From Desulfamplus magnetovallimortis (GTDB lineage Bacteria; Desulfobacterota; Desulfobacteria; Desulfobacterales; Desulfobacteraceae), in contig NZ_LT828564.1 of assembly GCF_900170035.1 (NCBI RefSeq), positions 1-64,000 of the forward strand: a stretch of 64,000 nucleotides of DNA, written 5' to 3'. The notes beneath the pieces were generated by a model. It saw only the letters and a list, made by a program, of their open reading frames with translations, had not been told where the DNA came from and did no database searches. This document shows positions 37,623-60,373 of the stretch, in pieces. The position numbers and the translations under genes were made by a program. Numbering within the stretch: the stretch's first letter is position 1; each line of letters opens with the position of its first letter.

Positions 37623-40600
37623 ATGTCTCTGATTAACCGGATTGAATTGAGTAATTTTCTGCTTGGAGCATCAAGAACAGCACATTACCGTCATGCCATT
37701 TTTGATTTTGAAGGTAAATCCACGGCTGTTGTTATGGGCAATGGTGGCGGAAAAACAACCATAAACAATGCACTTGTGGGTATGATGTCCAGAAACAATG
37801 CCCTGATAGGCAAAACAAGGGCATTAATGGCCATTCCTGGAACCGGCTCTGTCTATTCTCATATTCGTATTGAGTTTATTGTGCCGGATGAAGAGAGCAG
37901 TCGCCAGAACAGCCTTCCGGGCTTGTCATCTGTTATTACAGGGGAAAAATGGGTATTTGGAATATGTGGCTATTCCGGTGATAATGGAATGCTTTACTAT
38001 TACTACTATCCTGGTGTGCTTGAAGATAGCGCTGTAGTCCAGAAAAATGGAGATGCTTCTGAACAAAGAACTCGTTCGGAAAAAGGAAATGATTCAGACA
38101 GGGCAAACAGTGAGGAAAAAAAAGATAACCCAGGCAGTGATGATGGAAGATACTCTTCTGATAACTCTTTGACCCTTATAAGCAATTCCAGATTCAGGGA
38201 AAAAATAAAATCTATTCCAAGGGCAAGAATAGGAAGACCAATTCCAAGGGATGAGTGGCTTCAGGCAATTCACGAGCATATATCTCCCCAGCAGGTGGAG
38301 CAGCATCGCCATTTCCAGACAGCAGGTGGCGGAGATAAATCAGCTGATCTGTACAAAACCAGCAGGGTTCCCCATGAGGCTTTCCATCAGACATTTTTTT
38401 ATGAACATATAGCACCTCAGCTTACCATGGGTTCTGCCCTTGATTTAAGGGAATCTGCCCACATAGGTGGAGAGGATGCGGTGCATGGAGAGTATTTTCT
38501 TGATGAAAAGATCCTTGATATCTCCCTGAGCATAATAAATACCCAAATCCAGGCACAGAATAAAAAAGCAGAGCTTCACAAGCAGGAAAAAGCAATTGAT
38601 CTTTTAAACATACTTGCAGGGGTTGTGGATGATATCTCTAATGCCGGGACCTCCAGAGAGGAGCTTAGAAGTGCGGTTGAGGAGACTGCCGCATTTATGA
38701 AATATCTTGTCCATGATCATCCCCTGCCAGGTATTCCTGTTGTCGTGGAAACCGGAGTTGAGATCATTGATGCTCTTGTCAGGGAGATGGTTATTGTCCC
38801 GAACATGAAACCTGTCTTCATGATTCGTGATAAAGGTATAGAAACCTTGACAGGACAGGCGGTTAAAAGGGTTAACGAGCTTGCCCAGCGTTGTGGCATA
38901 AACGGTGCGCAGCCATCCCAGGTTCTTGAAATTACAGGTGGTATGGAGAGCGTAAAAAACTTGGTCCGGGGTAAAAATAAAAAATATCCGGGCAGGCTTT
39001 ACTCCCTTGATCACTGCCTTGCCATGCTTGAGCGTGCATCCATGAAGTTTCTCTGCGGCAGTGATAATGAGTCTGAAGAGATTCGGGATTCAATGAAAAA
39101 AGCAGTTGAGCGGGCCTTTGACCATTTTGAATCCAAAGTTGATACAAGTTTTTTCAGAAAATCCCTTAAGCAGATACAGCGAAGGATTGCCGAGATTGCT
39201 GTCTCTGCTGAGCATCTTGCTGAACAGATACGAAGGGATGAGGCACGCAAGATGGATATAGAGAGCAATCTTGCGACTTTCAGGTCAGATCAGAGATGTT
39301 TTCTGGATCTGGAACAATCAGGACTTTTTTCCAGCCTTGAGCTTGAACACCCTGGTTCCTGTAAGACAAATCTCAAGGTTGAGCAGGAGAGCCTTCAGAC
39401 AGAGCTGTCAGACAGTGTAAGCCGTGAGGCCCTTCACAGGGCTGTTTTTGCAAAATGGCAGGGGTTCAGGGAGAGTTCTCCCCATGAATCCCCTGTTGAT
39501 GCACTTGCCCGAATTGAAAAAGAGGAAGATGCCCTGAAGGCACGAAGAAACCGTTTGAAGGAGCAGGCGCTTTCCGTCAAGTCAAGGATTGCAGATACTG
39601 TTAAAACAATCCATGAACTCAATGATGAGATTGAGATTGAGCGAAATTCCCTTGCCAGGCTTGAGCCTATGCATCAGATTCAACTTAAATTCATGGAAAA
39701 GTGGCCGGAAGAGGCTCCTGAAAAAAATCCTTGATATAATAACAGAGCAGGAAAGAGCGTTGCTGGCTGATATGGAGGATTGCAAAAAGACCCTTCATAC
39801 ACTTAAGTATGAGAAAATAGCAGTTGAAAAATCCCTGCAAAAGGTTTCACGGGAATATGAAAGTGTTAACCGCAAATTCCAGACACTGTCTGAATTTTAC
39901 CCTGCATATGAACAGATGGTGAAAACATGGCCGGAAGATGAAGTCACAGGGCTTGAGGACAGGATAAGGGGCAGCCGTTCAGCATTTGAAAGCAGACTTA
40001 AGTCAATAAATGCAGAGATTGCAAGGCTTGAAAATCTTTACCAGAAGGAGTTGATCTTTAAAAAAGATGTTTCGGAACTTCATCCCCAAAAATGGATTGA
40101 TGATATTGAAAAAGAGCGGGAAGCACTCTATAGCAGACGAAGCGATCTTGCAAGAATCCTTGCATCCCTTGAGGTTGAGCATGAGCTTCTTTTGAACAGA
40201 AAAATTGCACCTGCAAGGATATTTAGAGATGCCTTTGAGCTTATACCCTCTGATATCAAATGGAAATCTCTCTACTCTTTTATTATTGACTATAATATTG
40301 ATAATAAAACAACAGAGAGATATCTATCCCTTTTTTCCTCATTTTTATTTGCGCCTGTTGTCTCTTCAACCAATGATGCTGCCTTGCTTCTTGAGCTTTT
40401 TGAAAAGGGTTTCATTGTTGAAAAGGCTTTCACTGATAATACTTCTGTCGGGTCCGCCGGACATGATGGAGCGCAGGTGACCGCAATCGACAAGCCAGGA
40501 CGTTTAGTCGGTTCTGCCGGATATGATGGAGAGCCATTGCCGGTTCCGGTTTTTCTTGAAAATGAACTTGTAACCTTTTTTCGTGACACTCCGGCAGAAG

Positions 40601-42969
40601 AGCTTTTTGTGTGCGATAAAACCCATGTGGTATCTCATCTTTTTACAGGCAGAAAAAACGAGATTATTGAATGCATTCTCGATCCTGAAGCAATTGTCAG
40701 AAAGCGTATTGCTATTCAGGAGCGAATAGAGTTAACCCGCGGTGAAATATCTTCAATTCAGGTTCGCCTTGATGAAATTGCGCCTGACAGTGAAGTTATA
40801 ACCCTTGCTTTTCAGGCCATTGAGTCAATTGAAAAGGGGGCAGGGGAGGCCATTGAAGTTGCAAAAAAAGATGCAACTGACCTTCTTTCCCAAAAATCTC
40901 TTTTTGAGGAAAAGTACCCTGAGTCAGCATATTCAATTTTCAGGGAAGCAGAACAGTTTCATAAAAAAGGGGGAATCAGGGTCTGGGAAGAGCTTCAGGA
41001 GTCAGTAAAAAGTCTTGGGGAACAACGTGAAAAGCTCAAGGCAGATGAGAGGGAGCTTGCCGACAGAAGTGCAAGAATGGAAGATGAACATAAAAAGTCC
41101 AAACGTCTTTTTTATGATCATAAAGGCAAATATGACACACAAAAGAGTGAATTGCTCTCTCTTATTCAATTCAACAGCTCCGGAGGCCCTGAAAAATATA
41201 CCAGGCTATTTGAAGCTGTTCGCTTTAAAACCATGGAGCTTGAAGAGTTTGAGGCTGAAAGAGACAGGGAGATGGAGACAGAAGGCAGGCTTGCAAAGGA
41301 AAGAGAGCTTGCAGAAGAGCATTTTACAGATACCATGACTGCCAATGTCCCGGTAAAGCAGAGTTTAAAGGAGATTATTCTTTTTGTTAACAGCAATGAT
41401 TTTGGATTCATGAGCAAAGCTGGAGAAAAGATTGAAAAGATACGGGAAAAAATTGCCACGATTAACAAAAAGCTCAATTTCAGGCTTGATGAAGCACAGC
41501 GTTTTGTGGATCACCTTGCCACAAGTGAGTCAGGTGAAAAAGAGCGTATTGAAGAGATAAATCATCTTCTTCAGAAGTCCCGCATGAAGATGGATGAACT
41601 CAATAAAAAGAAGCAGTTTCTGATAGACCAGCAGACAGACTTAAGCATTGCCTCTCCCCAGTATGACAGAATTTTATGTCACATTGTTTCACATTTTAAC
41701 ACACCCGGCATCCAGTATAAAAAGGCAGTTCCAAAGGGTTTTGAGTTTCCGGAATCCCTTGCAACAAAAGTCGATAGGCTGTATCAACTTGGTGGGATCG
41801 GCGAGATTGTTTCTGAAAAAAGCAGAGGAGATAAGCTCTCTTCTTTTTCAACCCAGGAGATAATTTCCGATATTGACTCCCTCAATGATCATTTTGATAA
41901 TGTGGGTATTGCATCATTTGCCGACAAAATCAAAAATATGACAAAAAAGATAGACTCCTTTAGAAAACAGTATCGAGAAACCCTTGAAAAAGGGCTTGCA
42001 GATCCTGAGATCCCTTTCAGACACTATGAGAAGGAGCACCTTCAGGATACAATGGAGCATCCTGAATATCTCTTGAAAATCAGAAAAACATATTTGGAGA
42101 TTTATAACAGGGAAAAGGCAAACTACGAGAGGGTGGCAAAAACAGAAGAGGCATTAAGGCAGGGGCTTGCAAAGGATCTTACCCGTCTTACAGATAAGGC
42201 ACACGATAATTTTATTATTTTGAGAAAGATTCTGAAGCACTACAGAAAATCAAGTGGCGCATCATTTGATGTCAGGGTAACCATTGCCGGTCGGGATAAT
42301 ATTGAAGAAGCCATTGAAGGGCTTATAAAAACTATAAAATCAAGGCATGAGCTATATATTTCCAATGACAGTGAGGTTATTAAAAAAAGCCCTTCCAGGT
42401 TGAAGAGGGATGACAGGGAGTATTACGGAGATCTTCGTACCCTTATAAGCCGTGACTGCTACCGCCAGATTTTTCTTAATCCTGAGATCAGGTTTATACA
42501 TCCCGAGATCCGCAATGGTGTTCCCACAATTTTTGTCAATGATGGCTCCATAAGCAATGGGCAGAAGTCAGCCCTTGCTCTTTTGTGGGTGGTGGCTCTT
42601 GCAGATTTTGCAGTGCAGAGAAAGCTTCATGAAGACCGCAGTCGTGGTGTAAGACATCAGGATGGAAGCAGGGTTTCAAGTTTTCTTCTTATTGACGGGC
42701 TTTTTTCCCAGCTTTCTGATGAAAATCTTATCTCCCTTAGCATGAAATCATTGCCGGACACAGAGGGAAATTTTCAGATAATTGGCTTTATACACAGCCC
42801 CACATATGTTCATCAGCATGACTTCAAGGTTTTTCCTGTGCTCATTCAGGGAGTGCAGCATCAGCAGATAGAAGGGGGACGCAAAGTGAAGTGGGTCTCA
42901 CTTGAAAAACAGAGCACGACACAGGGACAGATGTTCATGAAAGTGATGGTAACCCGGAGGAACGAGTGA
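37623..42969 (+). CDS. Giant SMC-like ATPase (MukB/MksB/JetC-like), frameshifted
   Basis: About 1780 residues if one A is removed from the A7 run at 39721-39727; as written, the frame stops at 39734 and continues in another frame to 42969. The N-terminal head has Walker A GNGGGKTT (residues 39-46), then long coiled coils; the C-terminal head has the signature SNGQKSALALLW and Walker B FLLIDGLFSQLSDE. The residue after the Walker B Asp is Gly where SMC proteins have the catalytic Glu. It is longer than MukB (about 1490) and MksB or JetC. Two insertions near 38040-38160 and 40440-40540 are low-complexity. It probably loads with the two preceding gene products on DNA, in chromosome organisation or anti-plasmid defence. 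Confidence 0.7.
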
Positions 42970-46315: not shown

Positions 46316-47431
46316 TTATCCTTCAAAATGATTTACAGGCTTATTGTTTCCAGATTGGTATATGTATATATGGGAAAGGGAAGAAGCTGCAATAATTAAA
46401 TCGTCAGAAGTTGTGCTTAATAACTTAATTTCTTTTTTAGAGGCAGGTTCAAGTGAAAAAGATTCAACTATTTCTCCTTCCATATTAATATATTCAATGG
46501 AGTTATTGGATATATTTTCCATAATAATGCCATTTTTATAATTTTTTACAAAACAGGTTCCGTCTGGAATGGAAAGTGATTTATGCAGTGAGCCATTCTC
46601 CTTGGCATAAAAAAGCAGGTTAAATTTATTGCTGTAAAAATAGAGAGAATCACCTTTCACAAAAGCTGATGATAATCCCATCTCATTGTTAGGTTGAGGA
46701 TAATTATATGAAGCAGTATCAGAATTATTTAAAACAGGATCAAATGGAGCTATGTAGATGCAGTTAGCTGTTTTGTTGTGGTTGATCTGGTAGCCTTCAA
46801 TAAATTTATTGCTTTTAAGATCAAAAACAATAATGGCATCAAATAAAGTGCTCACCATGAAAATTTTGGTTCCTGAAATAAAAATATCCTGGCAGCTTTG
46901 GATAAATTTGCATTGAAAAGTTTGTTTTATCTCCATTTTTTTATTAAAAAAGATAAGTGAGCTTTGTATTATTGTACAAAAGATATCTTTATATTTATGT
47001 AATCTATAAAAATTAATATCGGGAATATTAGAGGTTTTGCTGTTCTTTTCAGTATTGTATTTTTTTGTCTTTAGATCAAGTTGGGTGGTCTGTGTATCAT
47101 ATATAGTTGTCAGTAATCTATTCTTATCTTCCGCCTTTAAAGGATATCTGGAAACTATGTTTTGTTGCTCTATAGTATAATAATAGATTTGGGAAGGTTG
47201 TTGCTCTGAGGATCTTTCAGTTGCAAGAAGAAGTGGTTCTGTTTCAATATCAGATGTCGGTAATGCCCCAACTATGCTATTATCTCCATTAGTGGTTGGT
47301 ACTTGATCATTAAGATTTATTGGTATTGGATCATGAAAATTTTTGAGCGATAACAGACAAGATCGTTTTATAATATTTTTTATAATTTTTTTATGATATT
47401 CTTTATAAATAGTATCCATTTCAAAAACCAA
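46316..47431 (-). CDS. Predicted beta-propeller-like protein, unknown function
   Basis: 371 residues. I do not recognise the family. From about residue 85 there are repeated short strand-rich blocks such as TKIFMVSTLFDAIIVFDLKS, GDSLYFYSNKFNLLFYAKE and DDLIIAASSLSHIYIYQSG, each ending in a hydrophobic-aromatic pattern as in six-bladed propellers. The N-terminal 85 residues are basic then polar and probably disordered. Codon use is AT-rich compared with the dcw genes. It heads the operon with Uma2 and GT41, so it may bind a substrate or glycan; that is inference. Confidence 0.5.
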   Translation of the reverse strand: MVFEMDTIYKEYHKKIIKNIIKRSCLLSLKNFHDPIPINLNDQVPTTNGDNSIVGALPTSDIETEPLLLATERSSEQQPSQIYYYTIEQQNIVSRYPLKAEDKNRLLTTIYDTQTTQLDLKTKKYNTEKNSKTSNIPDINFYRLHKYKDIFCTIIQSSLIFFNKKMEIKQTFQCKFIQSCQDIFISGTKIFMVSTLFDAIIVFDLKSNKFIEGYQINHNKTANCIYIAPFDPVLNNSDTASYNYPQPNNEMGLSSAFVKGDSLYFYSNKFNLLFYAKENGSLHKSLSIPDGTCFVKNYKNGIIMENISNNSIEYINMEGEIVESFSLEPASKKEIKLLSTTSDDLIIAASSLSHIYIYQSGNNKPVNHFEG

Positions 47432-47734: not shown

Positions 47735-48289
47735 TTAAGAATTAACAATAATTTTTGCAGGATTCCCAAAGGCTTTTTTTCCTGAAGAGATATCATTAAC
47801 AACAAGACTATTTGCACCTATTATACAGTTATCTCCAATAGTCACTCCTTTGGCAATGATCGCATTAGGTCCAATATAACATTGAGAGCCAATTGACGTT
47901 GGGGCATGTTCTATTGTATCTTTTCCTCCACTAATAGCCCATCTAACAGAATCATGTGTATATATTTGAACGCCAGCAGATATAGAACAATTATTTCCAA
48001 TTATAAGTCCACCTGATCCATCCAATAAGGAAAATGGTCCAATCCAAGTATTGCTTCCTACCTTAACATCACCAATAACAATGGCACTATCATAGATACT
48101 TGTCCCTTCGCCAAAACCAAGATATGAAGCTTTTTCCCATCGATCCGTAAAAAGTTCATTTATAGGCAGGCAGCGTTTCCATTGGCTCATTTTATTTCGT
48201 CTTAATGTATTTAATAAAGCCTTGATTTGCTTAAGTAGAGTATTTGTTTTAGAGTGTAATGAATTGAGTTTTTTTTTATTTTTACCCAT
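47735..48289 (-). CDS. Hexapeptide-repeat acyltransferase (LbetaH)
   Basis: 184 residues. The left-handed beta-helix hexapeptide pattern is clear: [37 protein letters not shown], and [26 protein letters not shown] contains a likely catalytic His. It resembles sugar O- or N-acetyltransferases (WbbJ, NeuD relatives) used in surface glycan synthesis. The N-terminal 40 residues are basic and helical. It belongs to the glycan cluster that follows. Confidence 0.85.
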
Positions 48290-48524: not shown

Positions 48525-50457
48525 TTATTGGTTACTGTCTGGAAAGCCATTGTTTTTACCCGTATTCATATAATTTTTTAACCACCATTCAAAATTGAGT
48601 AAAGACCATATCAGCAACCGCCTGTTTTTTTTTCCTGTCAAATGTTCATTCACAAGAGATAAAACTGCTTTTTTATCCATATAATCATATATTCGAGCTT
48701 TTGAGTTAAAGAGTTGCTCTTTTACATAGTCTATACTCTCACCTTTAAACCAGGATGCATCAGGTGCTGAGAACCCTTGCTTTATAGCTGTATATATTTT
48801 TTTAGGTACGTATCTTTGCATTGCTTTTCTTAAAATCAATTTTCCATCTCTGGTCTTCTGAAAATATTGTTTTGTTTTGCCAGGTTCATTTTCATCAAGC
48901 CTGACAACATTTTTAAGATTGCCAAGTTTCATACTGATGGGCACCTGCATGGCAAAATCAACCAGTTCATTGTCAAGAAATGGCACTCTGCTTTCCAGGC
49001 CATGTGCCATGGAAAGCTTGTCTTCCACCAGAAGTAAACCATGTAAAAAAGTCTTGGCTTCAAAATACAATGAGCTGTTAACGTAATCTTCCGGTCTTCT
49101 GAGTTCATTTTGGTGGTATTTGAAGACATCCTTAAAAATGTCTTTTGTCCAGACGTTCCCGCATCTGTTCCAGATGGGTGAAAATATATTTTTTATCTCC
49201 TTATTTGGGATCAAACGTTGCCAGAACAGATAATATTTATCCACATAATCTTCAAAACTGTCGTTTACAACCGCTCTATAGTAACGCCAAGGATAGCCTC
49301 CAAACAATTCGTCTCCTCCTGTACCTGACAAAACAACTTTTACAAATTTTGATGCCAACTGTGTGGCATAAAAATTGGGGTAACTTTGTCCTACACGCGG
49401 TTCTTCAAGGTGCCAGGCTAATTTGGGAAGAACTCTTTCCATATCACCCGCTTTAAGAACCATTTCGTAATGTTCTGTCTTAAAAATGTAGGACATGTAT
49501 TCTGACATTACCCGTTCGTCAAATGCAAGTTCAAGGCCTGAAGCAGAGTGGAGGTCAAAACCACAGGTAAAGGTTTTAATGTATGGTAGCTGTTGTGCTG
49601 CAATGGCTGTAATTGCACCTGAATCCATGCCTCCACTCAAGAACGCTCCAAGTTCAACATCACTCACTAATTGACGTTTTACTGCTTTATAAAAAAGGCG
49701 ATCAAGCTCTTCAACGTATTCTTGAGTGTCAGCAGATGGAGTATCTGGTTCCCTGAAATTATAGTCCCAGTAATAACGGAGATCTAAAAATGACGTATTT
49801 TTGTTTGAAAGAGTATTTGTTTTTATTGTTGCATAGTGAGCTGCGGGAAACAGCTTAATTCCTTTTATAAGAGTTTTATCAGTAAAAAAAATTCTGGAAG
49901 GTAAAATATTCAATAAGCCCTTCAAAATCGACACTCCTTTTGACATCTGGATGCTCAAGGATAGCTTTTTGTTCGGAGGCAAAAATAAAGAGCTTGGGTG
50001 TTAATGTATAATAAAGTGGCTTTATTCCATAGCGATCTCTGGCAATAAACATGGTATCATTTAATCTATCCCATATTGCAAAAGCAAACATACCATTAAA
50101 CCTAATTACACATTCTTCACCCCACTCTATATATGAAATAAGAATTACCTCGGAATCAGTGTTTGAATTAAATCTATGGCCGGCTTGCTCCAATTCAGAG
50201 CGTAACTCTTGGAAATTATAAATTTCACCATTAAATACAAGAATAAATTGACCGTTTTCTGAAATCATGGGTTGATGACCTGCAGAAGAAAGATCAATGA
50301 TAGCAAGACGTCTATGAGCTAATCCTGCAAAGCGGTCTATATAGAAACCTTCACCATCTGGTCCTCTGTGAGAAATAGCATCTGTCATCCTTTTTAAGAT
50401 GACCTGCGAGACCGGCTCTGTTTTGGTAATATTTATTATTCCACATATTCCACACAT
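48525..50457 (-). CDS. asnB: Asparagine synthetase (glutamine-hydrolysing), frameshifted
   Basis: About 640 residues in two frames: the N-terminal part 50457-49879 and the C-terminal part from about 49890 to 48525. They join cleanly (EYFTFQNFF then TDKTLIKG) if one base is removed from the A8 run at 49884-49891. The Ntn glutaminase domain starts MCGICGIINI with Cys2 as nucleophile. The synthetase domain has the pyrophosphate loop VELGAFLSGGMDSGAI and LSGTGGDELFGGYPW. Such AsnB paralogues in polysaccharide clusters often amidate uronic acids or make amidated glycans rather than free Asn. The start overlaps the DegT gene by 22 bases. Confidence 0.85.
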
Positions 50458-51551
50458 AGTTTTTTTATCTCTTTTATTACCTCTGCTTGTTCATTTTCAG
50501 TCATATCGTGATACATTGGCAAAGTCAGGCAGTGTTCATAGGCGTATTTACTACCATCCATATCTCCAACTATACGGCATCGAGGATTGTCATAAAATGC
50601 TTTATGCATGTGCAGTGCATATGTTCCAATTTGCGTTTCAATCCCTTTCTCTGCAAGTTTTAAAATAATTTGGTTTCTATTTTGCACAAAAATACAGCAT
50701 GATTGAAATGAATGTCTTCCATTTGTCAGCGTTTTTGGGATTCCTATGGTATCAACTTTTTTGAAAACGTCATAATATTGTGCTGCAAGTTTTCTTCTTC
50801 TGACAAGAAGTTCATTGACATGAATCATCTGCCCCAGACCCACTGCTGCTTGAATATTGCTCATTTTATAATTGGTTCCGATATGTTCGAAAGTGGCAGT
50901 AGATCTTAACTCTTGTATGTCCATACCAAAATGTTTATATGATTGCATCCATTGTGCAAGCTGATCATTATTTGTCGTTATAAGTCCCCCTTCTCCAGTA
51001 GTAATAAATTTTCTGGGATGAAGACTGAATACACTGATATCTGCTTGATTCCCTGTTTTGACTGAATTATATTCAGAACCTAATGAACAGGCTGCATCTT
51101 CAATTATATGAAGGTTGTATCTGTTTTTTATTACATTAAGGCTATTATAATCTAACGGGTTGCCAAATATTGAAACTGGCATAATTGCTTTTGTTCGAGG
51201 AGTAATTGCGTTTTCAATGGCACTTTTATCAATAAGCATTGTTTGTGGATCTATATCAACAATGACAGCAGTTGCTCCGACAATGTTTACCACTGATGCC
51301 GTTGCAGGATAAGTATAATCTGGTATAATTATTTCGTCTCCAGAAGTGATGTTAAGAGAACGCAGTGCTGTCTCAAGCCCTACAGTACAATTACATACGG
51401 CTAAAACATGTTTGACTTCAAGATATTTTTGTATTGTGCTTTCAAATTTTTTTGTAACAGTGCCTTCGGTTAAATATCCGCTTTCAAGAACTTTTAAAAC
51501 CTCTTCTTTAATATTTTCATTAATATAAGGTTTTATTAGTGGAATTTTCAT
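50436..51551 (-). CDS. DegT/DnrJ/EryC1/StrS PLP aminotransferase
   Basis: 371 residues. A nucleotide-sugar aminotransferase of fold type I. Visible are LEVKHVLAVCNCTVGLETAL, GDEIIIPDYTYPATASV, the Asp/Ala region IIEDAACSLGSEY, and the PLP-binding Lys in SLHPRKFITTGEGG (about 181-194). It installs an amino group on a keto-sugar. Its start overlaps the epimerase stop by four bases (ATGA), and its stop overlaps asnB. Confidence 0.93.
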   Translation of the reverse strand: MKIPLIKPYINENIKEEVLKVLESGYLTEGTVTKKFESTIQKYLEVKHVLAVCNCTVGLETALRSLNITSGDEIIIPDYTYPATASVVNIVGATAVIVDIDPQTMLIDKSAIENAITPRTKAIMPVSIFGNPLDYNSLNVIKNRYNLHIIEDAACSLGSEYNSVKTGNQADISVFSLHPRKFITTGEGGLITTNNDQLAQWMQSYKHFGMDIQELRSTATFEHIGTNYKMSNIQAAVGLGQMIHVNELLVRRRKLAAQYYDVFKKVDTIGIPKTLTNGRHSFQSCCIFVQNRNQIILKLAEKGIETQIGTYALHMHKAFYDNPRCRIVGDMDGSKYAYEHCLTLPMYHDMTENEQAEVIKEIKKLCVEYVE

Positions 51552-52555
51552 TCTTTCACCTTTGACCGTCTTTTCTGCACAGCATCCTTATGGGAGTCTC
51601 TCCATTTAATCAATTCTTTTAAACCTTGTTTCAGCTCTATTTTTGCTTTAAACCCGATCTCTTTTTTAGCCATGTCAGGAGAGCCAACACGGTTTTTTAC
51701 AAAGGTTAATCCACCGGGAGCATACTCAATTTGCATATCTGAGTTTGTCACTTCAAGAATTAGTTCTGCCAGCTCTTTTATTGATGTTTTAATTCCTGTG
51801 CCCACATTGTAAAATGAGTCTGTTACATCTGATTTCATAGCATCAATATTTGCCTGGGCACAGTCTTTGACATAAATGAAATCATATGCCTGGGAACCGT
51901 CTCCGTAAACAACCGGTGGCAGACCCTGATCAAGTCTATCAAGAATTTTCATAATAACTGCGATGTAGGTGCCCTGATAATCTTGTCTTGAACCGTATAC
52001 ATTCATATAACGTAATCCTGCATAGTTGAAATATTTTTCCGTATCTTTATAACGATGATACAGTGCACGACACATCTGCTCTCCTGCAATCTTGGTAGCT
52101 CCATAAAAATTTGTATTGTTATACGGATGATTTTCTGTGATGGGTTCTTCCACAGCATCCCCATAAACACTTGCCGAGGAGGAGTACACCAGACGTCTGA
52201 TGCCATTATTGAGCATAGCTTCAAGGACATTGAATGTACCTCCCATATTGACTTCAAAAGCAGAGCGTGGGAAATCATAGCAGTGCAGCAGCCACAGGGC
52301 AGCCAGATGAAAAACTCCATCCATGCCTTTCATGGCTGAATCAAGAATGTCTCTATGCAGCAACTCTCCACCAAGATCAAAGACTTTTACCCGTGGATCC
52401 ATTAATGCATGGGCAATGTTCTCCTCACTACCTCTGGTGAAATTGTCAAAAATACGAATTTCTGCAACATCCTCTTTGGTGAGTAAGTCAACCAGATGAG
52501 AGCCAATAAATCCTGCTCCACCAATAACAAGAAATTTCTTTCCATTGATGTCCAT
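51548..52555 (-). CDS. NAD-dependent nucleotide-sugar epimerase/dehydratase (SDR)
   Basis: 335 residues. The Rossmann motif is VIGGAGFIGSHLVDLL (about 10-25) and the catalytic motif YGATK with SSSASVYGD before it. It is a GalE/WbpP/dehydratase-type extended SDR acting on UDP- or GDP-sugars. The substrate cannot be told. It lies eight bases after the large fusion protein and overlaps DegT by four bases. Confidence 0.93.
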   Translation of the reverse strand: MDINGKKFLVIGGAGFIGSHLVDLLTKEDVAEIRIFDNFTRGSEENIAHALMDPRVKVFDLGGELLHRDILDSAMKGMDGVFHLAALWLLHCYDFPRSAFEVNMGGTFNVLEAMLNNGIRRLVYSSSASVYGDAVEEPITENHPYNNTNFYGATKIAGEQMCRALYHRYKDTEKYFNYAGLRYMNVYGSRQDYQGTYIAVIMKILDRLDQGLPPVVYGDGSQAYDFIYVKDCAQANIDAMKSDVTDSFYNVGTGIKTSIKELAELILEVTNSDMQIEYAPGGLTFVKNRVGSPDMAKKEIGFKAKIELKQGLKELIKWRDSHKDAVQKRRSKVKE

Positions 52556-52563
52556 GGGGTTCC

Positions 52564-55500
52564 TTAAAATGTATATATTTTAGATGCTTTAGTGTTACCT
52601 TGCTGATACTTTTCATGATTCATTATCAAATCATATGTATACAAACAGCTTTTTATAATATTCTTAATACGAAAATACTTTAGTGCAAATTTTCTGCTTT
52701 CCATGCCTGTTTTTACAAGTTTATCTCGATTTTCCACAAGATCTATTATCTGTGCCTCAAGGCTCTCCCTGTCAACAACAATAGAGGGGGCATCCGGATA
52801 AAGAGATAATACAAAAGGATCAAGACAGCACATCACAGGGTGACCCAGAAACATGCTTTCCACTCCGCTCAATCCCCATCCTCCATGTAGAGAAGTAAAG
52901 GTAATATGACATTTTTGTTTGCGATGGAGGCATTCATTATTAGAAACACCTTTAATTATTTCCACATCAACCGGAAGACCTTTTTTTTGCAATTTTTTTA
53001 CAGTAGTTTGTAAAAAATCATATCCCTTTAATGGGGAACCTCCAGAGCCTGCTACAATTTTAACTATACCTTCTGGATATTCAGCACAGGGAATATCTTT
53101 TTCATCCATATCTCCATATTTACTGAAATAGTAGTGGTGTACATGATAAAAAGATTTGTCAAGAAGTGAAGTGATCGTAAAGTCGTTGGCGGTCAATGCC
53201 GCAATGCCAGTTTTTTTATGCCATGCATTGCATTTTTTTCCATTTTCTCTAAGGACAGAGCCGTAATAAGCTACAAGACAATTGCGTGGTGTTACAAAGT
53301 TATCAAACTTAATTCCTGGGAAATCAAAAATGTATCGTCCAAAATGGTAAAAATCTGCATTTTTTACAATTTCAATTGCCTCATCATAATCATTACCACA
53401 TTCATCCAAAATAATATCTTTGTCATAAGAAAAATGATCGTCATGCCAAATAATACATCTTGCTTTATGCTCTGAGTATTTATTGATTCCTCTCATTAAC
53501 CCGGTAAGTCCGCCTGCTATGTTAAAGTCAGAAATAATACATATATTCATGCCTGTCTTTAAGTGCCACTGATCCGGTGGAATCTGTTTTAGAAAAACAT
53601 CATTGATTTGAGTTGAAGAAAAAACATTCTGCTCATTATCATTATTTTGCGCTTTAATTTTTTCTAATGATTGAGATTTTTTATGATAACTGCCCTCTTC
53701 AATAAGAGTATTGATTTTTGAGTAACACTCTTTGACATTTAGAATTATTTCTGCATCTGTACCCTGTGCAAGAAGATAAGGAATCATATAGTAATAAGGC
53801 GATATCTCGGATTCATATCCACCACGATCAATACTTTTATCATCAAGAAGATAACATAGCATCCCATTGGTATACCCAAGAACAAACGTGTTCTCTGGAT
53901 AGCTGGTAATGTTTTTAAGGCTGATCCCCAATTCTGCTACAGACCCTGCAGGAAAACAGATAAATGTGGAATTATTTCCAATGGATGAGACTAACACATC
54001 AAGAGCAAGAGCGTTTGGAAAATCGCCTAAAGGATATGTCGCAGATAATCTTGCTGCCCACTCCCTTATAACAGGGGCTGATAGCAGGTCGTTTTTAAGC
54101 TGATTAATTCGATTGATATCAGGAACTTTTTTGAGCCGTAAATACATGGTTTGACTGGTGCAGAAAATGCTTGATTCTGTCAATGGTTTCAATAGAGCAT
54201 TATCAAGGGCAGTTTCAATGCATTGTGCCATGATCCTGCCATTTTTTTGGGCATCCTGTGATGTGCTGGAAAGGACTTGCTTGCCATTGAGTGTTGACGC
54301 CTCCTTTATGTCACCGGATGCCCCCTGAAGATACATGACATGGTCAACCTTACCTGTTTTTAAAAGCTCTTCCCTGAAATATCCCGGAAAATCAGCAGAT
54401 ATATTGTTTTCCATTCCAAGCCCGGTTGGTTGGCAGCCGTGATTGACCATTATAATTTTCTTGTTACTCTTCTTTAGTTCCAACAGAAGAAAAGGGGTGT
54501 GTTGATCATAAATTCCAGTCTTATAAGGCTGGAACTCTATTTTTTCGTTTTTTCCAGGTATGCCGTGTACGTTTACTCCAATACTGACATCTGTATTGCC
54601 TGAGTAGATATGTGACTCTTCAAGGTTATCATGAAGCATTGATAGTGAATTTCCGACAATACCCGCAATTTCCGTTGCATACTCTTTAAAATATGGACCC
54701 ATCGTCCTGAATGTATGAGACAATGTTCCTGGTCCGTAATGGGTGTGAGATGCATTTAAGATAATTCTCTCTGATGATATTCCCCATTGTGAAGCAGTAT
54801 TTCGGATAATTTCCACCATTTCACTGCCAAATCCAAAAATATCTGCTGCAACAAACAGGATTTTTGTCTGGCTTTCATCTTCAATTAAAAGAAGCTGCAT
54901 TCTCAGAGGAGAGCCCACTCCAATTGCTTTTCTATCTTCTCCTATAATGCCCTGAAGAAAAACCGGATTTTCATCTGATACCTTTGGTGTTATATTGAAA
55001 TCTCCAAACGAAGTGTGGAAACAGGCAGGAGAATCTGATTCAGATACAACTGGCCTTTTGATGTTATCTATATGTATCTTTAATGAATGGGTATTGGAGT
55101 CTTTAACAGGTTCGTTGACAGGTTCTTTTATTGTAATATTTTCGGATATTGCAATATTGCCAGGCTGGAAAATTCCGCCTTTTTTCAAGTTTTTGATAGA
55201 ATCAAGATAGCATTGGTCATCAGACAGAATCCAGGCAATATTCAGACAGGCCAATGCTGTAATGTTGCCTTTTATTGTGCTCTCTTGCTGCTGGGCGACC
55301 ATGTTATATGCCAATGCCAGCTTTTTGGTATTTTTTACGTTATCAAGTTCATGCTCAAGATAATTGTTCAATATGACGGCTGTTATTTGAAGAAATGATT
55401 TTCCATTGTTTACCTTGAGCATATACTCGGCAATAATTACAAGAGTTGCAAGATTCATTGTTTCGTAATCTTTAGTCAGATCCAGAAATTTTGTAATAAC

Positions 55501-56823
55501 AGCTTCGAGGGATTGGAATGCATCTTTTTTTCTTTCCAGAAAAATTTTATATTCAAGCATTGCTGTTTCAAACTCTTCCGAGTATGTGTTCTGGCGATTT
55601 GAAAGAGCATAGATTACTTTTTCAAGAAGATCCCATCTATCTGCCCTCTCAAGAGCTGATAGAAGAGGTTCGTGAAGTTCGGTGTTTTTGAGAAACGCTT
55701 CCTGACACCTGTTCCATAATTTTTCATAATCATCAAATCTTTTTAGTGCTATGTAGGCACTCATTAGCCAGAATTCAAGTGCAGATACTGCATCGGAAGT
55801 TGTGGTGGAGACCAGACAGGTATTGTTAACCTGTATAATCTTTTCAGAAACAGAATCTTTAGCTGAGGATCTGTTTTTCTGTTGATCAACAGACCGGATA
55901 AAGGCTTCCCCGCCTTCAATGACAATATTATGATGATTGAGGAAGTATCCTGTACAGGCAAGATCATAAAGAAGATCTGTTTCATCAGGAAGTTTCTCAA
56001 GTCCCTCCTGTACAATCTCAAGAGCAGTATCATAATCTTCTTTATCTATTAAAGTTATAGACAGTATGTGATAGATTGAGTAATAAAAATGGATATCGGC
56101 ATCTTTCTCTTGTACGGTTTTAAGCAAATCAAGACATCTTTTTGCATACTCAATGCCTTTATCCTCCTCGTTCATCTGCATACATAGCTGACTCAGATAA
56201 AAATATGCATGATAATCATCAGTATTTTGTTCCACTCTGCGATGCAGAAGATAGGATGTCCTTTTATATCTCTCCTGCATCTTCTCTTCAGGCAGTGCAT
56301 ATCCATAGTGGAAAAGATTTAGATCAAGTTCACCAGCACCCCCTTTGTATTCAGGCGTATTATGCACAGTTCCTCTGTAAATAAAATCCGCATTATTTCT
56401 GAAAAAGCGTACACGCTTGATTGTATTGGTAACTTCACCAGCTATGTTTTTTTCCAGAACAGGAATAAACAATGCATTTTCATTTTTAGATTTTTTCTTT
56501 AATGTCTCTTTTAATTTGTTTTTTGTAATAGCAGTTGCATCCAGTTCTTCATCAGCATCTATGACAAGTATCCAGTCTCCGGTTGCATAGCTGATCGACT
56601 GATTTCTGTGTCTGCTGAAATCATCTTCCCAGGGATGGTGGAATATTCTTGTATTAAAAGATTGTGCAATTTTAACTGTTCTGTCTGTTGATCCTGTATC
56701 AACAATGATAATCTCGTCCACAAGATGTTTAATGCTGTTGAGGCATCGCTCAAGCATTGCTTCCTCATTTTTTACGATCATGCAGGCAGATAGTTTTATA
56801 TTTGTTGTTTTCTTTTTTTTCAT
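52564..56823 (-). CDS. GT2-TPR-ceramidase-like-GT4 fusion protein
   Basis: 1419 residues with four blocks. (1) GT2 glycosyltransferase (about 9-220): LSACMIVKNEEAMLERCL, IIVDTGSTDRTVKIA and the DxD-type DADEELD. (2) Helical TPR-like region (about 220-570). (3) A domain like neutral/alkaline ceramidases (about 600-1060), with FGDFNITPK, NASHTHYGPGTLSH (the THTHSGPG-type zinc site), VNHGCQPTGLGMENNISADF and LQGASGDIKE. (4) GT4/GT-B-like C-terminus (about 1090-1400) with ICIISDFNIAGGLTGLMRG, GGSPLKGYDF and HGGWGLSGVESMFLGHPVM. The fusion suggests one protein that both cleaves or binds an amide-lipid-like substrate and adds sugars. It starts the glycan operon. Confidence 0.85.
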   Translation of the reverse strand: MKKKKTTNIKLSACMIVKNEEAMLERCLNSIKHLVDEIIIVDTGSTDRTVKIAQSFNTRIFHHPWEDDFSRHRNQSISYATGDWILVIDADEELDATAITKNKLKETLKKKSKNENALFIPVLEKNIAGEVTNTIKRVRFFRNNADFIYRGTVHNTPEYKGGAGELDLNLFHYGYALPEEKMQERYKRTSYLLHRRVEQNTDDYHAYFYLSQLCMQMNEEDKGIEYAKRCLDLLKTVQEKDADIHFYYSIYHILSITLIDKEDYDTALEIVQEGLEKLPDETDLLYDLACTGYFLNHHNIVIEGGEAFIRSVDQQKNRSSAKDSVSEKIIQVNNTCLVSTTTSDAVSALEFWLMSAYIALKRFDDYEKLWNRCQEAFLKNTELHEPLLSALERADRWDLLEKVIYALSNRQNTYSEEFETAMLEYKIFLERKKDAFQSLEAVITKFLDLTKDYETMNLATLVIIAEYMLKVNNGKSFLQITAVILNNYLEHELDNVKNTKKLALAYNMVAQQQESTIKGNITALACLNIAWILSDDQCYLDSIKNLKKGGIFQPGNIAISENITIKEPVNEPVKDSNTHSLKIHIDNIKRPVVSESDSPACFHTSFGDFNITPKVSDENPVFLQGIIGEDRKAIGVGSPLRMQLLLIEDESQTKILFVAADIFGFGSEMVEIIRNTASQWGISSERIILNASHTHYGPGTLSHTFRTMGPYFKEYATEIAGIVGNSLSMLHDNLEESHIYSGNTDVSIGVNVHGIPGKNEKIEFQPYKTGIYDQHTPFLLLELKKSNKKIIMVNHGCQPTGLGMENNISADFPGYFREELLKTGKVDHVMYLQGASGDIKEASTLNGKQVLSSTSQDAQKNGRIMAQCIETALDNALLKPLTESSIFCTSQTMYLRLKKVPDINRINQLKNDLLSAPVIREWAARLSATYPLGDFPNALALDVLVSSIGNNSTFICFPAGSVAELGISLKNITSYPENTFVLGYTNGMLCYLLDDKSIDRGGYESEISPYYYMIPYLLAQGTDAEIILNVKECYSKINTLIEEGSYHKKSQSLEKIKAQNNDNEQNVFSSTQINDVFLKQIPPDQWHLKTGMNICIISDFNIAGGLTGLMRGINKYSEHKARCIIWHDDHFSYDKDIILDECGNDYDEAIEIVKNADFYHFGRYIFDFPGIKFDNFVTPRNCLVAYYGSVLRENGKKCNAWHKKTGIAALTANDFTITSLLDKSFYHVHHYYFSKYGDMDEKDIPCAEYPEGIVKIVAGSGGSPLKGYDFLQTTVKKLQKKGLPVDVEIIKGVSNNECLHRKQKCHITFTSLHGGWGLSGVESMFLGHPVMCCLDPFVLSLYPDAPSIVVDRESLEAQIIDLVENRDKLVKTGMESRKFALKYFRIKNIIKSCLYTYDLIMNHEKYQQGNTKASKIYTF

Positions 56824-57303: not shown

Positions 57304-57408
57304 TGGTTAACTCTATTTTCTGAAAGTTTTTTTAGTGCCCATTTGAATTTTTTAATTCAGTATGGACAACATTATGAGACCATCAAAGTTTGTTATAAGG
57401 AGAAAAAA

Positions 57409-60373
57409 GTGCATAATTTCTGGGATAAAAACATTGAACTTCTTCGTCAAAAGGATCAAAAACTTTGTAATAGTGTACTTTCTTTCACTCCTTCTGATAT
57501 CGGAGATATTATTGAAACATCCACTTTGCCTACCCTTCGTTTTAGAACTCCTGGAAAAAAATATACCTATGCATATGATCCTGTTGATCCTTTAAGTAAT
57601 ATTGAACAAAAGCTTCCAGTACTTAAAAATAAAAATAATCTCAATGAGACCGTATGCATTTTCACTGGTATGGGGCTGGGGCATCTTCCCATTGTGGCAA
57701 TGGAGCGTAGAAAAGATATTTTCAGGGCAGTTATTCTTGAACCCTCCATGGATATCTTTTACTTAGCCCTTAAATATGTTGATCTCTCCCCGCTTTTTAC
57801 ATCTCCAAAGATTTCCATATTTGCAGGGGAGATTGACTGGAAGCAGTTTGATGAAACCATCAATAGAAAAACAATTAATACTGATTTTCTTTTCAGCGAT
57901 TTTCTTGCACTTTTTGACTGGAATCCTGAACTTTACAACAACGCAAAAAATAAGGCCAGGGCATATGCTGTCAGGGCTGTCTCCGGCATGGGTGTGCTTG
58001 GAAAGTTTGGAGAGCATATTTTCAGAAACAGAATGCGTAATCTTGAGCTTTTCAGAGAAGCATCCTTTGCAGACAGGCTAAAAGATGCTTTTAAGGGGAA
58101 ACCCGCTGTTCTTGTTTCAGCAGGCCCATCACTTGACAAAAGTATCCCTTTGTTAAAAAAGGCTGTTGGTAAATGTGTAATGATTGCTGTGGATTCTGCT
58201 CTTGTTCCCTTACAAAGGAATGGTATCAACCCTGATTTTGTGGTTACCTTGGATTACAGGGAGCTTAATTCCGAAAAGTTATCTCCTGATGTTGTGTCAT
58301 CAGCAGATTTTTCCCTTGTTGCGACCATAACATCATCTGTTCCCACTGCACGAAGGTTGCCATTGAAAAATCTTTTTTTCTGCTTTCAGGATAATGATAC
58401 TCAATCCTGGCTAATTGAGGCTCTTAAAATCAAATATCTCATGGAGCCGGTTGGTACAGTTGCCTCCCTTGCGTTGAGTTTTGCCCAGATGATAGGTGCT
58501 GATCCAATAATTATGACAGGCTATGACTTTGCATTAACAACAGAGGAGACAGACCATGTTGGAGGTGTGGTTTTTAACCATGGATGGCATTTAAAGGATG
58601 GAAGCTTTGTTGTTAAGAGTATTGACGGGCATGGCGTTCGTACCCTTGATTTTCTATTTGAGTTTAAGCAAAATTTTGAGCAAAATCTCAAAAAATATCA
58701 ATGTGAATATATAAACGCAACAGCAGCAGGTGCCCATATTGAAGGTACCAGAGTGGAAAGTCTTGATAATGTTATCAATAACTATCTGAGAGAACCTTTA
58801 GATCAAGGGCAGATTATTAAGGCAGCTATGGAGGATTCTCCAACTCCTGCAATTTCCAGTTTTATTGCTGCAGCAAAACTTCAGATTGATGTTGCAAACA
58901 AAAGTTTAAAGCAGATACAGGCGCTGCAAAAACAGAATAGCAAGGTTGTTCAAGCTATTCAAAAGTACAGCAAAAAATTGAAAGGAAGGGTGGATGGCAT
59001 AAACCGTTTGTCCCAACTTACTCCGCAAGTGCAAAAAGATAAGAAAAAGCTTAATCAAATGTATAAGCGATTAAAGCCTTTTATGCCAATGGAAGAGGTG
59101 GCAGCTAAAAAGATACATGAAGCCAGATCTTTTGAAGAGACAGAAGCGGTATCTAACTACATTGAAACGGTTTTAAAGGAGTCAAGGGTTCTGGAGCTGG
59201 AGATGGAGGGGCATCAATATGGCGTTGAAGTTTTTATTGCCTCGGTGGAGGGTCTTGTTAAATTCTTGGAAATGGAAGAGAATATTCTTGGAAAAGAGTT
59301 TGCAGGAGGTAGGGAGGGGATTGTTGGGGGGAGAAATGGAGTTGCAGAAGACAAAATTTCTACCGTAAATTTCGGGGAAAACAACGAAATGACGGCACTT
59401 ACAGAACATTATATTAATGAGCGTTGTCCCATTAAAGCTCTTTCAATACTGAGTTGTGAGCCCGAAATAACTCATTTTAATTCCAACTCCACTTTAATAG
59501 AGATCGGGAGAGGGCAGAATGGTGAAAGCTCCAAGGAGGTTAATGGAGATTCTGCCAGGTACCATTTTTTTAATGGGAAATATATATGTCCAGCTTTTAA
59601 ATTTTGATATGGCCTTTAAATACTGGGAAGTTGCCCTGAACAAGGAACCCGGCTTAAGCTTGGAAATCAAGGATTATCAGAGAAAAGAAGCAGATTACTG
59701 GCTGGAGCGGGGCAGAACAGAACCTTCTATAATGGATAAGGCCATGACACGGGCATTGCAATTGTGCCGTGAAGAGGATTTTATCGTAAAGGCTAAAAAT
59801 GTGGGCTGGCAGCGTTCATCAGCAATGTTAAATACTTGGATCAATAAACATGCCCGATTTAAAGATGCAGAACTGTTTCTTTGCTATCTTGAACCTTTGC
59901 GTGGATTAACACCTGAGTGGGATTATCTAATGGGACGTCTTTGTTCACAAAAGGGTGACATTGAAAATGCCTTGGTTCATGTTGAAGATGCACTGAAATA
60001 TGAATTTGAAGAGGCTGAAAAACCAAAAGATTACCCTTCGTGGATTGGATTATCAGCAAGACTTTTTTTGGAAAACAACAGGTTTGAGGAGGGAATTAAA
60101 AGGCTTCAGGAAGCTGTTGAGATGGATAAAAATCAGGCAGTTCTTTGGGAAGAGCTTGGTGATACGCTTTTTGGTATGCAAGATTACACTACTTCTGCAA
60201 TTGCCTATGAAAAATGTTATATTGCAATGCCAGACAGGCATGATATCCTGAAAAAGTTTGGTGATTGTTACTGTAAGATGGGGGAGATTGAAGCGGCAAG
60301 GGCTGCATATCAAGCGGTACTTGAAAAAGATTCATCCAATGAAGCAGCAAAAAAAGCCTTGGATGAATTATAG
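57409..60373 (+). CDS. Maf/DUF115 motility-associated glycosyltransferase with TPR tail, frameshifted
   Basis: About 985 residues. GTG at 57409 is chosen as start because AAGGAG lies six bases upstream; a TTG at 57343 is in frame. The N-terminal Maf domain (about 1-190) is followed by the DUF115/MptE-like domain (about 230-420) with GKPAVLVSAGPSLDKSI and GINPDFVVTLDYRELN. A coiled region and C-terminal TPRs follow. The frame closes at 59607 but continues at 59519-60373; removing one T from the run at 59565-59571 joins them as HFLMGNIYVQLLNF, a TPR. Maf proteins transfer sialic- or pseudaminic-acid-like sugars to flagellin. Confidence 0.82.

Follow-up and report, generated by a model that had tools for sequence, protein, structure and literature searches.

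A Desulfamplus magnetovallimortis protein in which a short ceramidase-like domain with a degenerate metal site is joined to GT2, TPR and GT4-like parts

Domain order of the 1419-residue protein

Our analysis of a 64,000 nucleotide stretch of the Desulfamplus magnetovallimortis genome (NCBI RefSeq assembly GCF_900170035.1, contig NZ_LT828564.1, positions 1 to 64,000; "the window" below means this whole stretch) centres on one long open reading frame (ORF) on its reverse strand, which is open from an ATG for 1419 codons and encodes a protein of 161 kDa (table 1). From its N-terminus the protein carries a GT2 glycosyltransferase domain, a tetratricopeptide repeat (TPR) and helical region, a domain of the neutral/alkaline ceramidase family PF04734 that we call CerL (residues 598–1060), and a GT4-like domain, which is the least certain of the four parts. 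A preliminary description of the sequence had proposed this order within a single ORF, and the open frame together with the Pfam, PDB and profile matches given below confirms that it is real; the G+C fraction is similar along the ORF (0.345–0.392 by segment), and nothing points to a misjoin. The literature searched (titles and abstract openings, much of it unrelated) contained no account of this architecture, and what we appear to have are known parts in an order new to that literature, one of them with a degenerate metal site.

Table 1. Features of the ORF and of its neighbours in the window
Feature	Positions	Strand	Basis
Whole ORF, GT2-TPR-CerL-GT4-like	52564–56823	-	1419 residues, 161 kDa
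GT2 domain, residues 12–136	56416–56790	-	Pfam Glycos_transf_2, E 1.2e-24; PDB matches GmaR, SunS
TPR and helical region, residues 169–545	55189–56319	-	TPR_14 over cut-off; alignment
CerL, short-form PF04734 domain, residues 598–1060	53644–55032	-	Pfam, hhalign, plasmid tblastn
H693-T-H695, where PaCD H97 (zinc) and H99 are conserved	54739–54747	-	alignment
V752, at the place of R160 (catalytic), lost	54568–54570	-	alignment
H795 to Q798; Q798 replaces zinc ligand H204	54430–54441	-	alignment
G960, replacing zinc ligand E411	53944–53946	-	alignment
Y991 to Y1003, where PaCD Y448 (zinc) and Y460 are conserved	53815–53853	-	alignment
Linker from CerL to GT4-like domain, residues 1061–1091 (31 residues)	53551–53643	-
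GT4-like domain, residues 1092–1419	52567–53550	-	PF00534 below cut-off; alignment; PDB PglA
NAD-dependent sugar epimerase/dehydratase (GalE/LegB-like)	51548–52555	-	Pfam Epimerase over cut-off; NCBIfam names below
PseC/LegC-like DegT aminotransferase	50436–51551	-	Pfam DegT over cut-off; NCBIfam names below
AsnB-like amidotransferase, two overlapping frames	48525–50457	-	Pfam; NCBIfam name below cut-off
Hexapeptide (NeuD-like) acyltransferase	47735–48289	-	Pfam Hexapep over cut-off; NeuD below
MptE-like/PseD (Maf)-like protein, upstream, divergent	57343–59607	+	Pfam MptE-like over cut-off; PseD below

The GT2 domain contains the motifs DTGSTD and DADEEL, which we take to be of the sugar-nucleotide/metal type. 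Behind it the TPR_14 model scores over its cut-off (residues 253–289, 24.1 bits against 23.5), and the remaining TPR models fall under theirs. The nearest solved structures to this part are GmaR (PDB 22ao, E 3.8e-34) and SunS (PDB 7msp, E 2e-19), and the ORF has the GT2 profile followed by TPR of GmaR/SunS-type proteins; its score of 92 bits with the SunS model TIGR04195 (E 2.7e-26) against a cut-off of 350 indicates, therefore, that it is not SunS itself. The N-terminal GT2 is common to Listeria GmaR, SunS and the ORF, and in GmaR too it is followed by TPR, but both of these proteins lack CerL and the GT4 domain. According to an excerpt of PMC3150276, the glycosyltransferase domain of GmaR spans residues 6–103 and its TPR residues 165–350, and its C-terminus, unlike that of the ORF, is an anti-repressor.

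At the other end of the ORF, a profile built from the C-terminus and five stand-alone homologues (6 sequences) finds PglA in the PDB at E 3.4e-4. The stand-alone proteins are 21–24% identical to residues 1085–1419, and are encoded by separate genes in nonulosonate-type clusters at four of the five loci, whereas in the ORF this part is fused; NeuB(-SAF) genes lie adjacent to them, or one gene away, at 4/5 loci viewed. Three loci (L080, L081 and L082; also L027, where it is interrupted) share a recurring set of nucleoside diphosphate (NDP)-sugar dehydratase-like and GT4-like genes and a NeuB-SAF/xylose-isomerase-like TIM barrel fusion; this NeuB-TIM-barrel fusion may merit separate attention.

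The CerL domain and its metal site

The Pfam model Ceramidase_alk (PF04734) matches residues 623–806 of the ORF at E 4e-6, with 26.2 bits against a cut-off of 32.1. We nevertheless regard this weak match as real homology, because the homologue in the congeneric genome G004 scores 33.9 bits, above the cut-off, and because a profile comparison (hhalign) of the three Desulfamplus CerL sequences with 13 short-form PF04734 proteins (9 plasmid and 4 chromosomal) gave a probability of 100 and E 6.9e-45 over 421 columns. The assignment of the third domain to PF04734 in the preliminary description is thus borne out. CerL is similar to the short forms over the whole domain, and so belongs among them; compared with seven ceramidases of ~700 residues from genomes of the ORF's family and order, the same three sequences gave a probability of 93.7 and E 1.9e-7, in columns 40–504 of 706 only. 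The CerL domains of two further fusion proteins, G306 and G346 (described below), have no Pfam match to PF04734 at E 0.01 and are linked to that of the ORF by 44% and 43% identity, respectively.

The short forms are uncharacterised proteins of ~420–490 residues, and no function for the bacterial ones is described in the literature searched; the excerpt of PMC13260240 makes no mention of ceramidase. A tblastn search of plasmids with CerL found nine records, eight of them with a single place spanning at least 80% of the domain at 21–24% identity; the genes there encode 423–485 residues, and for 7/9 the annotation is that of a ceramidase N-terminal domain protein ("neutral/alkaline non-lysosomal ceramidase N-terminal domain-containing protein"). 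CerL aligns with the short forms along its entire length; they are free-standing and have a complete metal site, whereas the CerL of the ORF is fused and eroded. To the catalytic domain of the neutral ceramidases, PaCD (2zws) and the human enzyme (4wgk), CerL is remotely homologous, and it lacks the second, C-terminal domain of these ~650–700 residue enzymes. A single-sequence PDB search with the ORF reached PaCD at E 0.5 and a profile built on all five fusion-clade CerL sequences reached it at E 0.025; the short-form profile finds PaCD at E 1.4e-39 and human neutral ceramidase at E 2.5e-33. In a midpoint-rooted tree with 23 rows, one clade (100/100) unites the five fusion CerL domains and another (100/100) five long ceramidases; 11 short forms group with the former and two (G409 and G427) with the latter.

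At positions 97, 99, 160, 204, 411, 448 and 460, 2zws has H, H, R, H, E, Y and Y; we take H97, H204, E411 and Y448 to be the zinc ligands of PaCD, and H99, R160 and Y460 to be catalytic. The 13 short forms have 12 invariant columns, among them the equivalents of all seven of these residues, and in a site alignment of 30 rows (L062, a wrong-frame ORF, was dropped) all seven are kept in 24/24 valid rows outside the fusion clade, G632 included, as well as in the CerL domains of G306 and G346. In the ORF the four zinc ligand positions read H, Q, G and Y, and the three catalytic positions H, V and Y. The equivalents of H97, H99, Y448 and Y460 are therefore shared with PaCD and those of R160, H204 and E411 are lost; across the ORF, G003 (the second congener) and G004, R160 has become V, S and S, H204 is Q, Q and H, and E411 is G, G and A. 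The HTHYGPG zinc motif pointed out in the preliminary description is thus present, but the zinc site around it is incomplete. Three residues before the H204 place stands H795, which is His in all five fusion-clade rows and Tyr (14) or Phe (10) in the other 24.

The domain is conserved despite this loss. Nonsynonymous and synonymous divergence (dN/dS) of CerL is 0.18/1.24 between the ORF and G003, 0.17/1.32 between the ORF and G004, and 0.17/0.73 between G003 and G004, with ratios of about 0.13–0.15 for the ORF against its congeners (for the TPR part the values are 0.45/1.32 for the ORF and G003, and 0.06/0.26 for G003 and G004). With dN/dS this low, CerL has been retained by selection even though none of the three Desulfamplus has an intact ancestral site; and because the metal site decayed while purifying selection persisted, its function is probably other than the ancestral one.

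Relatives and gene neighbourhoods

The two congeneric Desulfamplus metagenome-assembled genome (MAG) contigs, JADFZJ010000016.1 (G003) and JADGBE010000141.1 (G004), encode TPR-CerL proteins of 822 and 832 residues that have neither the GT2 nor the GT4 part. The first 34 residues of these proteins match the beginning of the ORF's GT2 domain (alignment scores of 69 and 71; the best of 2000 shuffles reached 48), and this likely remnant suggests that GT2 was excised in them from an ancestral GT2-TPR-CerL protein. G003 has a separate GT2-TPR gene directly upstream, and those of G004 and G006 are located on different contigs; in alignment, the TPR/helical region of the ORF is partly shared with the congeners' separate GT2-TPR and TPR-CerL proteins. 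At the DNA level G003 and G004 are 85–97% alike up to about codon 480, inside CerL, and 68–81% alike after it, and the last 22 codons are unlike (L022 15157–17625 against L004 675–3173; about 90% falls to about 72% identity), a breakpoint that suggests recombination.

Proteins from two other families of the order have the same TPR-CerL core as the ORF, followed by other partners: G306 (1251 residues) is TPR-CerL-sulfotransferase-GT2 and G346 (1213 residues) is TPR-CerL-sulfotransferase-GSCFA, and both differ from the ORF also in their complete site. TPR-CerL thus looks like an exchanged module, and the GT2 remnant in the congeners together with these transferase fusions in two other families argues that multi-domain fusion is a habit here, not an accident of assembly. 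The possibility that the ORF might be a chimera of genes that are separate in relatives therefore holds by half; TPR-CerL is separate in the two congeners and the GT4-like part stands alone elsewhere, but the congeners keep a likely piece of GT2 and other families have fusions of their own.

A five-row CerL profile matched 7/389 genomes of the order at 1e-8 (G000, G003, G004, G306, G346, G242 and G113); in G242 a truncated CerL adjoins a TPR frame, and the G113 match is an ordinary ceramidase of ~700 residues. A GT4 remnant behind the decayed G242 CerL was suspected by eye; it has no Pfam match and we do not claim it. Within the family 3/86 genomes matched at 1e-10, and in the families of G306 and G346 1/22 and 1/8. 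Across the phylum 10/395 genomes matched at 1e-8, the ORF's own genome finding itself at 1e-249 and nine others lying at 1e-17 to 1e-9, seven of them with open frames of 450–499 residues and two with longer ones. A search for the same architecture thus saw the exact GT2-TPR-CerL-GT4-like order once, in one genome, among the CerL profile matches, and TPR-CerL fusions with other further domains in G306 and G346. No further strong match was seen in the ORF's own genome among the 10 of 14 first-look candidates that were scored, a single-protein scan of genome contigs and a scan of viral contigs confirmed no relative, and an alignment scan of genome contigs found only the two Desulfamplus MAG records. 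Some genomes of the family and order also contain separate ceramidases of ~700 residues.

Around the ORF, a same-strand run of genes begins 8 bp downstream and encodes the epimerase/dehydratase, aminotransferase, amidotransferase and acyltransferase of table 1, then a family-less ORF, a Uma2 gene and a GT41 protein. The downstream genes look like amino-sugar synthesis, which agrees with the glycan-synthesis setting that had been suggested for this protein. The AsnB-like gene (48525–50457, reverse strand) has its glutamine amidotransferase (GATase) and synthase parts in separate frames, a frameshift or a draft error; at 57343–60373 (forward strand) the divergent MptE/PseD-like ORF begins at a TTG and shares its end with a TPR ORF read in a different frame, and the two are possibly one broken gene. 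Inside the amino-sugar run, 46316–47431 (reverse strand) is an ORF of 371 residues that has no Pfam match at E 1e-3 and no NCBIfam match at E 1e-10.

The neighbours of free-standing short forms were viewed at 13 loci; five of the nine phylum matches were fetched and four of them counted (G632, with long GC-rich overlapping frames, was left out), and G446, G509, G610 and G651 were left unviewed. NagA-type genes adjoin three of the 13 loci. In G409, NagA and a SIS isomerase are over their cut-offs and a NagK-like gene is below; in Devosia, SIS is over its cut-off and NagA and NagB are below; in Martelella, NagA is below and a sugar isomerase is present by annotation. Two more loci have a BshB1-like deacetylase (G731) or a PseC-like aminotransferase (G541) alongside, both below cut-off. 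These contexts are suggestive of a link between short forms and amino sugars.

Possible functions of the fusion protein

We infer that the ORF encodes a cytosolic multi-domain glycan-assembly protein in which CerL, having lost zinc ligands, is a non-catalytic module that binds amino sugars; we give this reading a probability of about 0.48. The worn-away metal-holding site argues for glycan building rather than lipid cutting, and the loss of site residues for a non-catalytic CerL. The TPR helices would hold an acceptor, either protein or glycan, to which the GmaR/SunS-like GT2 domain attaches a sugar, CerL would bind or position the N-acylated amino-sugar product without hydrolysing it, and the GT4-like domain, acting in sequence with GT2, would add a further sugar. 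The sugar nucleotide could be supplied by the products of the downstream epimerase/dehydratase, PseC-like aminotransferase, AsnB-like amidotransferase and NeuD-like acyltransferase genes, and the free-standing short-form relatives may likewise handle N-acylated amino sugars.

Several observations weigh against this reading. A clear amino-sugar gene next door is lacking at 8/13 short-form loci; the independent NagA contexts number two, because the Devosia and Martelella sequences are sisters, and G409, the sole locus with NagA over the curated cut-off, lies on the long-ceramidase side of the tree (85/88, on a long branch), away from the fusion clade. Support is itself weak (85/88 and 88/91) at the forks by which the fusion clade falls among short forms, and in that tree the composition of the three Desulfamplus rows deviates. 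The second histidine is kept in G004, H795 might substitute for a lost ligand, and dS between the ORF and its congeners is near saturation. PF00534 (glycosyltransferase group 1) matches the isolated C-terminus weakly, at E 8.8e-4 and under its cut-off, so the GT4-like assignment is a sub-cut-off one; structure models of CerL (from a 3-row alignment) and of the GT4-like part (from a single sequence) had mean predicted local distance difference test (pLDDT) values of 36 and 33 and were not used. The NCBIfam names for the neighbours are below cut-off. Finally, the MptE/PseD-like gene is a neighbour of the kind expected where flagellin and a Maf protein share a locus, but all six flagellin matches are on contigs other than that of the ORF, which weakens the reading of the region as a flagellin glycosylation island.

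The main rival, rather unlikely in our estimate, is that CerL has remained active as a metal amidase or N-acyltransferase whose site is rearranged (H693, H695, H795 and Y991); it would remove or exchange an amino sugar's N-acyl group while the chain is built by GT2 and GT4. The four conserved equivalents, the fusion-specific H795, the purifying selection and the full site in the similar fusions G306 and G346 all fit it; on the other hand, the ORF and G003 have lost two of the four ligands and the arginine, and G004 one ligand and the arginine, where 24 outside rows keep all seven residues, and H795 did not arise to replace lost ligands, because G306 and G346 have it beside normal ones. The erosion of the site also tells against the coupled cleavage or recognition of an N-acyl (ceramide-like) lipid and sugar transfer that had been suggested at first. 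This is the least probable of the readings weighed here: CerL has remote homology with PaCD and human neutral ceramidase, but it resembles the short forms much more closely, several genes for which lie in GlcNAc-type operons, and separate ~700 residue ceramidases occur in some genomes of the family and order. Lipid cleavage is thus left unsupported by the relationships of CerL and by its lost ligands and arginine.

Two further alternatives put less weight on CerL chemistry. The protein could be a GmaR-like regulator or scaffold: its GT2-TPR part would glycosylate a protein, or hold one, and its later domains would serve mainly protein-protein contacts. GmaR is the best PDB match to the ORF, TPR-CerL was kept in G003 and G004 while GT2 was seemingly deleted, and the excerpt of PMC3150276 gives GmaR a comparable layout of glycosyltransferase, TPR and anti-repressor C-terminus; yet the ORF ends in a glycosyltransferase-like domain, and the sulfotransferase with GT2 or GSCFA in the other fusions points to glycan catalysis, so that we consider the regulator quite unlikely. 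It is very unlikely, in turn, that the GT4 fusion is an artefact of a lost stop or sequencing error and that two proteins are made. The GT4 part is absent from G003 and G004, M1092 aligns at or near the start of the stand-alone homologues, and two nearby gene pairs (AsnB and MptE-like/TPR) are frame-split in the draft, but the ORF runs continuously through the 31-residue linker at similar G+C, and by eye no good ribosome site precedes M1092.

Beyond the glycan-assembly reading favoured above, a wider proposal can be made only tentatively, and we put it well short of an even chance. The short-form PF04734 proteins may be unrecognised zinc amidases for N-acylated amino sugars. One lineage of them in the Desulfobacterales would then have been attached to TPR scaffolds and exchanged between multifunctional glycan-assembly proteins (with GT2, GT4, sulfotransferase or GSCFA), and in Desulfamplus would have turned into a non-catalytic reader of amino sugars within a protein that has two transferases. 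The short forms carry a ceramidase-domain annotation, but for some of them gene context and the pattern of site residues suggest activity on amino sugars instead; the fusions indicate that a PF04734-type domain was drawn, in several architectures, into what is likely glycan assembly.

Two other features may be mentioned. In the window, two long overlapping ORFs (703 and 1126 residues) occupy different frames of 37623–42969 (forward strand), and neither matches Pfam at E 1e-4. Beyond the window, genome contig C25 carries a phosphonate set (L030 6230–10573) that encodes a phosphoenolpyruvate (PEP) mutase-cytidylyltransferase, a phosphonopyruvate decarboxylase, an Fe-type alcohol dehydrogenase (Fe-ADH) and an adenosine phosphosulfate (APS)-kinase-like protein; the first two are over their cut-offs, and the set suggests phosphonate-decorated glycans or lipids.

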